Program-made: the position numbers and the translations under genes
Origin: Hymenobacter elongatus
Lineage (GTDB): Bacteria; Bacteroidota; Bacteroidia; Cytophagales; Hymenobacteraceae
DNA length: 64,000 bases
Assembly (NCBI RefSeq): GCF_004745955.1
Contig: NZ_SRLD01000025.1
Span: 1-64,000, forward strand
Direction: 5' to 3'
Part shown: positions 115 to 52,878 of the stretch, one piece after another
Numbering within the stretch: position 1 is the stretch's first letter
How the letters are laid out: each line of letters begins with the position of its first letter
The notes under the pieces: generated by a model
What the model saw: only the letters and a program-made list of their open reading frames with translations
The model's database searches: none
Told to the model about the DNA's origin: nothing

Positions 115-487
115 AAAGTAGAGGTAAAAGTGAAGCAAAAGTAACTGTGAAGCTGTTTAGAAAGAAAAATAGAACGTCATGTCGACCGACGGGAGACATC
201 TCGCGTGCCATAGTAGATGATTCCTGTGGCAACGTCAGCACGCGAGATGTCTCCTCTCTGCTTGATGCGCAGAATAGTCGACATGACGTCTTAGCATGTT
301 TCGAGCGACTTTCTAAACAGCTCCTGTAGCAAAAAAGGCGGTCATGCTCATCTGGCGTCCGCGCAGTCGAAGCATCTCTCCCGCTTCGCTGAACAGTGCT
401 GACGTAGCGGGAGAGATGCTTCGACTGCGCGGACGCCAGATGAGCATGATGGTCCAAATTCAGTACGCTTACTTCTGCACGACTACT
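115..487. mobile_element. MITE-like element, family C, interrupted by a second element
   Basis: The left part (115-148) and right part (328-487) are together nearly the same as the uninterrupted element at 52716-52878. Both end in AATTCAGTACGCTTACTTCT followed by GC[AG]CGA[CT]TACT, and both carry GCAAAAGTAAC[TC]GTAGCAAAAAAG on the left. The core is an imperfect palindrome of the family A type (CATCTGGCGTCCGCGCAG... and its complement) at about 350-445. The element is split by the insertion at 149-324. It has no coding capacity. The exact left boundary is uncertain. Confidence 0.7.
149..324. mobile_element. MITE-like element nested in family C, TSD TGT
   Basis: A 176-bp palindromic element with terminal inverted repeats GAAGCTGTTTAGAAAG (149-164) and CTTTCTAAACAGCTCC (309-324). 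It is flanked by TGT at 146-148 and 325-327. Removing it with one TGT restores the sequence seen at 52727-52748, where the same family C element carries CGT at the target site, so the insertion can be read directly. The inner palindrome contains GAGACATCTCGCGTGC and its near complement. Confidence 0.8.
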
Positions 488-6693: not shown

Positions 6694-6841
6694 GAAGCTG
6701 TTTGAGTTAGCAAAAAAATCCTGAGACGGTCATGCTGAGCTTGTCGAAGCATCTCTACCGCTTCGTTGAACGGCCCCTACAAAGCGGTAGAGATGCTTCG
6801 AAAAGCTCAGCATGACCGTTTTTAATAACTCAAACAGCTTC
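6694..6841. mobile_element. MITE-like palindromic element
   Basis: 148 bp with terminal inverted repeats GAAGCTGTTTGAGTTA and TAACTCAAACAGCTTC. The flanks are TAG and TAA, which may be a slightly decayed 3-bp target duplication. The core is family A: GTCATGCTGAGCTTGTCGAA with its complement around a short spacer. The right end overlaps the last codons and stop of the minus-strand gene at 6830-7525. Confidence 0.75.
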
Positions 6842-14990: not shown

Positions 14991-15012
14991 GAAGCTGTTT
15001 AGGAAGTCGGTT
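14991..15012. repeat. Solitary terminal repeat upstream of the MarR-GNAT gene
   Basis: GAAGCTGTTTAGGAAGTCGG plus TT. The complement of nearly the same 22 bases (21 of 22 match) is at 16420-16441, so the MarR-GNAT gene lies between inverted copies. No target duplication is visible (AAA against AAT). Confidence 0.6.
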
Positions 15013-15071
15013 GTGTCCTACCTACTCAGGTAGGATACGCCGCCAACATGCTCTACACCACAAATTGCATT

Positions 15072-15085
15072 TGTAAGTACTTACA
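15072..15085. promoter_or_regulatory. Palindromic operator for MarR-type regulator
   Basis: Perfect 14-bp palindrome TGTAAGTACTTACA ending 8 bases ahead of the ATG at 15094. The position is ideal for autorepression by the MarR domain of the downstream gene. A second palindrome TCCTACCT-ACTC-AGGTAGGA lies at 15016-15035. Confidence 0.6.
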
Positions 15086-15093
15086 CTTGCGGC

Positions 15094-16044
15094 ATGGACT
15101 TCTTCGAACAACTTGGCCCAGCGGCTTTGGGGAGCCGCTTGCGCCGGCTCAGCGACACCATGACGGGGCAGGCTACGGCCGTGTATGCGCTCTACCACCT
15201 TTCTTTCGAGCCCCGGTGGTTTCCGGTTTTTTACACAGTAGCAACCCAGCCCGCGCTGCATGTGGGCGAAATTGCCGACCGCATCGGCCACACGCACGCC
15301 GCCGTCAGCCAGGTACTTAAGGAGTTGGTGAAGCACGAGTTAGTGAGCGTGCAGCGCGGTGAGGCCGACCAGCGGCGCAGCATCGTGGCCCTCACGCCGA
15401 AGGGCACGGAGCTGTGGCCCGCGCTCCAGCAGCAGGCCGCTGATGTGCGCCAAGCCACCGAAGTGCTGCTGGCCGAAACCCGGCACAATCTCTGGCTGGC
15501 TATCGGAGAAATGGAATATGCCCTGTCGCGCGGCACGTTGGCCAGCCGGGTGAAAGCCATCCGCGACCAGCGCCTGACTGGAGCCGTGCGGCTGCTGGAC
15601 TACACACCGCCGCACCAGCCCGATTTTAAGCGCCTGAACGCGGAGTGGATTGAGCGCTACTTCCGGCTGGAAGAAGCCGATTTAAACGCCCTTGACCATC
15701 CGGACGAGTACATCCTGGCGCGCGGCGGGCACATTCTGCTGGCCGAATACGGCGGGCAAATCGTGGGAACCTGCGCCCTGATCAAAATGAGCGACGGGGC
15801 CTACGAGTTAGCCAAGATGGCCGTGGCACCGACGGCGCAAGGTCTAGGCATCGGCTTGCGGCTGGGCGAGGCGGCGGTTGCCAAAGCACGCGCTTTGGGA
15901 GGGCAGCGCCTCTACCTGGAAAGTAATACCAAGCTGGGCCCGGCGCTCAACCTCTACCACAAGTTGGGGTTCCGCAAAACTATTTCGGGCCCGCCTTCAC
16001 CGTATACGCGGTGCAATATCCAAATGGAACTGCTGCTGACGTAG
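15094..16044 (+). CDS. MarR-type helix-turn-helix / GNAT acetyltransferase fusion
   Basis: 316 residues. The N-terminal half (about 1-140) is a winged-helix MarR domain: LHVGEIADRIGHTHAAVSQV is the DNA-reading helix-turn-helix and RGEADQRRSIVALTPKG the wing. The C-terminal half (about 165-316) is a GNAT N-acetyltransferase with the acetyl-CoA loop VAPTAQGLGIGLRLGEAA and the C-terminal NLYHKLGFRKT. The architecture is known in bacteria; the acetylated substrate is not. A perfect palindrome just upstream suggests autoregulation. The gene lies between inverted copies of a MITE terminal repeat (14991-15012, 16420-16441). Confidence 0.88.
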   Translation: MDFFEQLGPAALGSRLRRLSDTMTGQATAVYALYHLSFEPRWFPVFYTVATQPALHVGEIADRIGHTHAAVSQVLKELVKHELVSVQRGEADQRRSIVALTPKGTELWPALQQQAADVRQATEVLLAETRHNLWLAIGEMEYALSRGTLASRVKAIRDQRLTGAVRLLDYTPPHQPDFKRLNAEWIERYFRLEEADLNALDHPDEYILARGGHILLAEYGGQIVGTCALIKMSDGAYELAKMAVAPTAQGLGIGLRLGEAAVAKARALGGQRLYLESNTKLGPALNLYHKLGFRKTISGPPSPYTRCNIQMELLLT

Positions 16045-16441
16045 GCTGTGCGGACAGCAAGTACTCAAGTGAAGAGAACGGGCCATGCTGTGCTTATTGA
16101 AGCACCTCGCGTGCCACACTGCTCATATACCCTTGCGGTAGAGACCCTTCGGCTACGCAGATGCCAGATCAGGCATGACACGAAACCGACTTCTTATAGC
16201 GGTTTCACGAACGATGTACTGGCCTACGAAGTAGCGCGAACTTTGTAATTCGCGTCCCCGCGCCAAAGGACCGTTCTAGGCTGTGTGGACGGTAAAAAAA
16301 TAGATGCTTCGGCAAGCGGACGCCAGATCAAGCATGACGTTCTTTCTGTTTACTGTCCACACAGCCTAGGATGCGAACTACAAAGTTCGCGCTACTATCC
16401 GCACGTACACCGTTCGTAAAACCGACTTCTTAAACAGCTTC
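16045..16441. mobile_element. Composite of nested palindromic elements
   Basis: Several short elements are stacked here. The outermost right end AACCGACTTCTTAAACAGCT is at 16420-16439. Inside it lies a pair TAGCGGTTTCACGAACG / CGTTCGTAAAACCG, the same family as 11971-12121. ACTTCTTA occurs on both sides of that pair. Within it is a palindrome AGTAGCGCGAACTTTGTA / TACAAAGTTCGCGCTACT. This in turn is split by an element with ends GGCTGTGTGGAC (16279) and GTCCACACAGCC (to 16366). No gene is supported. Confidence 0.6.
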
Positions 16442-17267: not shown

Positions 17268-17344
17268 CCGGATTGGTATGAGAATACCAGAACGTCGGGT
17301 CGCCATGACGTTCTGGTTGCAGCTGCGTTTTACAGCACACACTT

Positions 17345-17494
17345 GTTCCTGAATCAGAAATGACATAAAAAAGAACGTCATGCTGAGCTTGTCGAAGCAT
17401 CTCTACCGCTTCGTCGGACTGCTCAAACGAAGCGGTAGAGATGCTTCGACAAGCTCAGCATGACGTTCTTTTTTCGTTTCGCTTTATTCAGGAG
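17345..17494. mobile_element. Family A palindromic element
   Basis: Core at 17367-17474: AAAAAAGAACGTCATGCTGA on the left and its exact complement on the right, with CTTGTCGAAGCATCTCTACC inside. Weak outer inverted repeats TCCTGAAT / ATTCAGGA lie at 17347 and 17493. The long stem ends in a T-run on both strands, so it could also act as a bidirectional terminator for the SDR gene. Confidence 0.7.
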
Positions 17495-17549
17495 CCAGTC
17501 TCATATACAAAGGCCCTGGAAGATGCTTCCTTGTCCTTACCCAAAACTC

Positions 17550-26498: not shown

Positions 26499-26812
26499 GA
26501 GGCTGTTTGAGTTAGCAAAAATCTGTCATTGTGATGTAGAGACGCATGGTTGCGTCTCGTCGCTTGCGCCTCAAGGCCAGGTTTTGTTCAACGATGAGAC
26601 GCAACTATGCGTCTCTACATCATTCCTGATACTGAAGCTGTTTAGAAAGTCAAAAGAACGTCATGCTGAGCTTGTCGAAGCATCTCTACCGCTTCGTAGG
26701 TGCCGTTCAAAGAAGCGGTAGAGATGCTTCGACAAGCTCAGCATGACGTGCTGATTACAGTTGGCGACTTTCTAAACAACTTCACTTAAAAAAAACCAAC
26801 TCAAACAGCCTC
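26499..26812. mobile_element. MITE-like element carrying a second element, TSD TAA
   Basis: Ends GAGGCTGTTTGAGTT (26499-26513) and AACTCAAACAGCCTC (26798-26812), flanked by TAA at 26496-26498 and 26813-26815. The left part holds a family B palindrome, GATGTAGAGACGCATGGTTG and complement (about 26535-26622). The right part is occupied by another complete element (26634-26783). The target itself, ACCGACTTCC-TAA-ACAG after rejoining, looks like the terminal repeat of yet another element. Confidence 0.8.
26634..26783. mobile_element. MITE-like element, family A core, TSD ACT
   Basis: 150 bp with ends GAAGCTGTTTAGAAAGTC and GACTTTCTAAACAACTTC and ACT at 26631-26633 and 26784-26786. The inner palindrome is family A (AACGTCATGCTGAGCTTGTC... 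complement). It lies wholly within 26499-26812. Confidence 0.8.
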
Positions 26813-52715: not shown

Positions 52716-52878
52716 AAGTACTCAAGCAAAAGTAACCGTAGCAAAAAAGACGGTCATGCTGAGCTTGTCGAAGCATCTCTACCGCTACGTCAGCACTGTT
52801 CAGCGAAGCGGTAGAGATGCTTCGGCAAGCTCAGCATGACGTTCTAAATTCAGTACGCTTACTTCTGCGCGATTACTT
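52716..52878. mobile_element. MITE-like element, family C, uninterrupted copy
   Basis: 163 bp with inverted ends AAGTACTCAAGCAAAAGTAA and (complement of right end) AAGTAATCGCGCAGAAGTAA. The family A palindrome inside has CGGTCATGCTGAGCTTGTCG and its complement. The copy at 115-487 is the same element carrying an insertion; this copy shows the empty site (CGT at 52737-52739). Confidence 0.8.

Follow-up and report, generated by a model that had tools for sequence, protein, structure and literature searches.

An IS5-type MITE lodged in a dispersed repeat of Hymenobacter elongatus, and a hairpin found in several transposon shells

How did a short, gene-less element come to lie within another repeat of Hymenobacter elongatus, which enzyme carried it there, and where did its interior come from? 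In the window, the 64,000-nt stretch of contig NZ_SRLD01000025.1 analyzed here, a 176-bp element occupies positions 149-324 of the forward strand, as judged from its sequence, its ends and the pairing of such ends genome-wide. Its 16-bp terminal inverted repeats (GAAGCTGTTTAGAAAG/GGAGCTGTTTAGAAAG) differ by one mismatch, and the sequence places a TGT immediately to the left (146-148) and to the right (325-327). Positions 132-345 read GAAGCAAAAGTAACTGT, then the insert, which starts GAAGCTGTTTAGAAAG and finishes CTTTCTAAACAGCTCC, and then TGTAGCAAAAAAG. The host is a family C element on the forward strand, whose outer limits lie approximately at 120 and 482, whose left arm is degraded upstream of about position 130 and whose own hairpin (GTCATGC..GAAGCATCTC) falls at 341-449. 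The first-pass annotation had given exactly these boundaries and the flanking TGTs within a family C repeat, and both are borne out. No Rfam match was found within positions 1-600.

A second family C copy, at 52716-52878 on the forward strand, is uninterrupted and reads TCAAGCAAAAGTAACCGTAGCAAAAAAG from position 52722. When 149-324 and one TGT are removed, the two copies (115-487 and 52716-52878) can be aligned on either side of the join, as the first-pass annotation had anticipated, with a single substitution (T/C) at the join, within the duplicated trinucleotide. The copy 52 kb away had been presented as the preserved empty site; it does read straight through and align across the join, but it is a paralogue and not an allele. 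In relatives only the neighbouring genes match, and because the flanking intergenic DNA is not conserved there, an orthologous empty site was not readable. Taken on their own, one filled and one empty copy are symmetrical, and the distant copy might instead have lost its element by precise excision, the copy at 149-324 having gained nothing. We consider this very improbable: a doubled TGT is seen in the filled copy alone, and the family C copies aligned from contigs C65, C102, C33, C71, C45 and C60 all lack the insert at the corresponding point, family C being uninterrupted in seven other aligned copies when that at 52716-52878 is included. Given the junction alignment and the lack of the insert in other copies, insertion into the 115-487 copy is the simple reading. 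That the insertion was recent, as first proposed, may be the case; the closest copy is 95% identical and the two ends differ by only one mismatch.

The element belongs to a family. Across the 4.97-Mb draft genome (137 contigs), exact GARGCTGTTTAGRAAG ends, hereafter A-type ends, occur 91 times (37 forward and 54 reverse), compared to zero for the reversed control, indicating a real family and not chance. The prediction of further copies with 3-bp duplications thus held: the 3-bp flank is identical in 27 of 48 distinct paired elements, where approximately 0.75 would be expected by chance, while the flanks match at 2 bp in 2/48 and at 4 bp in 0/48. The other 21 of the 48 have no exact duplication, which we attribute to decay, recombination or nesting. 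The duplications have no fixed sequence (ATT, TGT, AAT, ACT, AGT, GAA, GCT and others), and the closest relative of 149-324, at 60239-60412 of contig C46, is flanked by GAA. The element at 149-324 is short, has terminal inverted repeats and contains no transposase gene; the family shows a constant-length (3-bp) duplication, multiple dispersed copies and ends in common with an autonomous insertion sequence (IS), as expected of miniature inverted-repeat transposable elements (MITEs). The window holds a second such MITE on the forward strand (26634-26783, 150 bp, duplication ACT), nested in an element with a different terminal-repeat shell, shell B (26499-26812; ends GAGGCTGTTTGAGTT, duplication TAA), which also holds another palindrome. 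Whether A-type MITEs favor other elements as landing sites was also weighed, but only about four of 27 look nested (those at 149 and 26634 in the window, L002 and L015), too few to support such a preference. Three A elements of the same genome are only 65 bp long (L051 1499-1563, L164 973-1037 and L168 997-1061) and resemble shells from which the hairpin core described below has been deleted, few core bases being left.

Which transposase could have moved them? The first-pass annotation had named an IS5-type group as an example of a possible parent, and a full-length IS5-family IS of 915-938 bp with the same 16-bp ends and 3-bp duplications is indeed found in about 20 other Hymenobacter species; it was not found in the window. 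A search by end pattern recovered end pairs 932-938 bp apart in congeners (L130-L133; ends GAAGCTGTTTAGRAAG; duplications AGT, AAT, GTA and GTA) that encode transposases of 276-287 amino acids. These score above the cut-offs of PF13340 (DUF4096), PF01609 (DDE_Tnp_1) and the IS5-family model NF033580 (129-140 bits for the last, cut-off 110). By protein search across the genus, matches to the parent transposase are present in 33 of 120 genomes, including that of H. elongatus, and nearly all complete IS copies with both ends among the loci fetched from this genus-wide set have exact 3-bp duplications. The ends of most A-type MITEs of H. elongatus read GAAGCTGTTTAGAAAGTC, and the IS copies with such ends include a 915-916-bp subgroup (L393-L395). 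In one congener (G072), at least eight near-identical 915-bp IS copies lie alongside MITEs with identical ends, such that autonomous and non-autonomous forms coexist within one genome. Another (G010, L136) carries an intermediate form, a 261-bp internally deleted IS flanked by an ATT duplication, in which both ends and a portion of the transposase gene remain. Named relatives were located in Hymenobacter psoromatis and Hymenobacter sp. YIM 151858-1, in both cases on plasmids.

The genome of H. elongatus itself is different. No intact cognate transposase was found in the 137-contig draft, from which a collapsed IS could be missing; the only relative of the transposase is truncated, 49% identical and has different ends, and, with the exception of the L027 locus, none of the PF13340 loci has A-type ends. 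The family therefore looks orphaned at present, assuming that the IS was not simply missed in the draft, and its present mobility is doubtful. The lack of an autonomous IS in the same draft bears on this present mobility and not on MITE status. Two wider end pairs were rejected as the parent. The pair at 14991-16441 (GAAGCTGTTTAGGAAG / GAAGCTGTTTAAGAAG) encloses a MarR/GNAT-like gene (15094-16044) and pieces of other MITEs, with no transposase and no duplication, and is perhaps a coincidence or a rearranged passenger unit. The 1139-bp pair at L027 (131-1269, contig C114; duplication AGT) proved to be a MITE-type pair in a triple nest, the A-type ends enclosing both a shell-C element that contains a hairpin core and an IS5-family IS that is unrelated and ends in GAGCCTGTTATGGACTGG repeats.

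Based on these observations, we regard it as very likely that 149-324 is a non-autonomous IS5-family MITE that was mobilized in trans into the family C element by the transposase of the 915-938-bp IS. The DDE transposase of this IS, encoded elsewhere, would have cut the left arm of the family C repeat with a 3-bp stagger and inserted there the MITE brought from a different location; repair would then have duplicated the TGT. The cut-and-paste route and the loss of the IS from the lineage are, like the trans transposition itself, inferred from sequence comparison. The palindromic hairpin in the middle of the MITE represents a repeat family of its own rather than an IS remnant; the terminal-repeat shell probably captured it and carried it along thereafter. 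The two copies had initially been taken as proof of mobility, and this stands for the past only. Similarly, it had been argued that, with no transposase present, the element must move in trans; past movement of A-type MITEs in trans is well supported by the shared ends and duplications, and the parent is missing from the window, but the "must" goes further than these data.

MITEs moved by IS5-type enzymes are already known. MITEPsy1 of Pseudomonas syringae, an IS5-related MITE of 100 nt present in six copies, is likewise short and gene-less, has IS-like terminal repeats, is thought to be mobile in trans and has some copies within other transposons (PMC3189936). Whereas MITEPsy1 duplicates 4 nt (CTAG or YTAA) (PMC3189936), the target duplication of the Hymenobacter MITE is 3 bp long and variable in sequence, and the element is present in dozens of copies of varied length with interchangeable hairpin fillings. 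Among annotated transposases, the relatives of the parent are those of the ISBf6-like IS5-family ISs of Bacteroidota, at approximately 49% identity, from which the parent differs in its GAAGCTGTTTAGRAAG ends. We identified no named IS with these ends in a comparison made outside ISfinder, and our literature search, which lay outside most subscription journals, returned nothing on this MITE family, its parent or its hairpin. Taken alone, the insertion is a routine case of MITE biology, documented with unusual clarity and with its parent identified; the unusual part is the hairpin, which this new member of the IS5-type MITEs shares with several other shells.

As single-stranded DNA, the whole 176-bp element folds with z = -10.1, and its internal core (176-287, forward strand; GTCATGTCGACC..GAGACATCTC type) is a member of a hairpin family that starts GTCATG, finishes CATGAC and commonly has GAAC/GTTC borders. 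Such a strong hairpin in the interior, and the existence of the same type of hairpin with no recognized terminal repeats at all, could suggest that 149-324 is not an IS5 MITE but a palindrome of REP/BIME type that owes its dispersal to a Y1 (RAYT) transposase. This seems highly unlikely in view of the exact 3-bp duplications and of ends identical to those of an IS5-family IS. Moreover, the sole Y1 transposase gene of the genome (PF01797, contig C83) has no hairpin core across its 3.3-kb locus, so that the REP/RAYT arrangement of a palindrome flanking its cognate Y1 gene is not seen. That gene (L248) sits amid a different, GGCGC-rich repeat, which is possibly its own REP family. The free hairpin core, as distinct from the IS5-type MITE, may still depend on a Y1-type mechanism. 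Like REP/BIME and other dispersed bacterial palindromes, the core is extragenic and free-standing at most Hymenobacter loci examined; unlike them, it is longer (about 88 nt), shows no RAYT association and is here packaged in IS-derived shells.

To what extent the core is shared was surveyed in 800 kb of the genome, in stretches picked by coordinate only, together with the window. With shell-end assignments that tolerate four mismatches, and of which G and some others are weak, the 42 paired hairpins comprise nine with the A ends of 149-324, five with C, two with B, two with E and one each with F, G and D ends; several have differing ends or one recognized end, and eight have none. A core lies within 70 bp of A-type ends in 19 of 35 cases, even though cores with their flanks make up 1.1% of the sample. 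Overall, at least five different terminal-repeat shells hold the hairpin in this genome, some of them mixed (A/B, C/F and D/E). The shells have duplications of their own, CTAG for E and 3 bp in some B, C and F elements. Within the window, GTCATG-family cores are found in a shell-B element (6694-6841), a shell-C element with ACTTGTTCCTGAAT ends (17339-17501) and, in the form of about half a core, a shell-E element with GCTGTGTGGACAGT ends and a CTAG duplication (16280-16365). A second palindrome, GTAGAGACGCA, is common to shell A (L039) and the shell-B element at 26499-26812. Elsewhere, 80 loci were drawn from a public genome collection, almost all of them from Hymenobacter; 79 of their 90 hairpins have no shell ends, but the core turns up again inside A, D and F shells. 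In two congeners (G024 and G072), the A shell holds the hairpin version of its own species. The core was found in none of the six parent IS copies first examined; a later copy (L383) contains an eight-base piece of it.

We favor, with some reservation, the idea that MITE shells derived from several ISs, with duplications of both 3-bp and CTAG type, have repeatedly taken up a genus-wide hairpin as their filling: one cargo, many transposases. Free-existing hairpins would have been captured by several shells, and mixed ends would probably have arisen by recombination inside the shared hairpin. Alternatively, for this wider pattern only, long palindromes might have recombined with one another or been misassembled, and this, not capture, would have placed the hairpin in different shells. 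Mixed A/B, C/F and D/E shells do exist, recombination may well be their cause, and palindromes can be misjoined in short-read assemblies. This explanation is nevertheless unlikely for the pattern as a whole, given that elements with two ends of one shell type and an exact duplication do hold the core (it is contained in 19 of 48 A elements) and that shells A and F hold the same core in independent named assemblies. The interior of a MITE is usually regarded either as what is left of a single parent or as filler; under repeated capture, a palindrome family is common to the shells of several ISs, which suggests that palindromes hitch-hike on unrelated transposases. The origin of MITE interiors becomes testable here, as free and packaged copies can be compared over more than 100 genomes of one genus. 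Five records (L276, L288, L289, L319 and L327), labelled Kiritimatiellia, Nitrospinaceae, Verrucomicrobia and Thermomicrobiales, also contain the 27-base hairpin arm as an exact match, for which contamination, transfer or wide distribution are all possible explanations.
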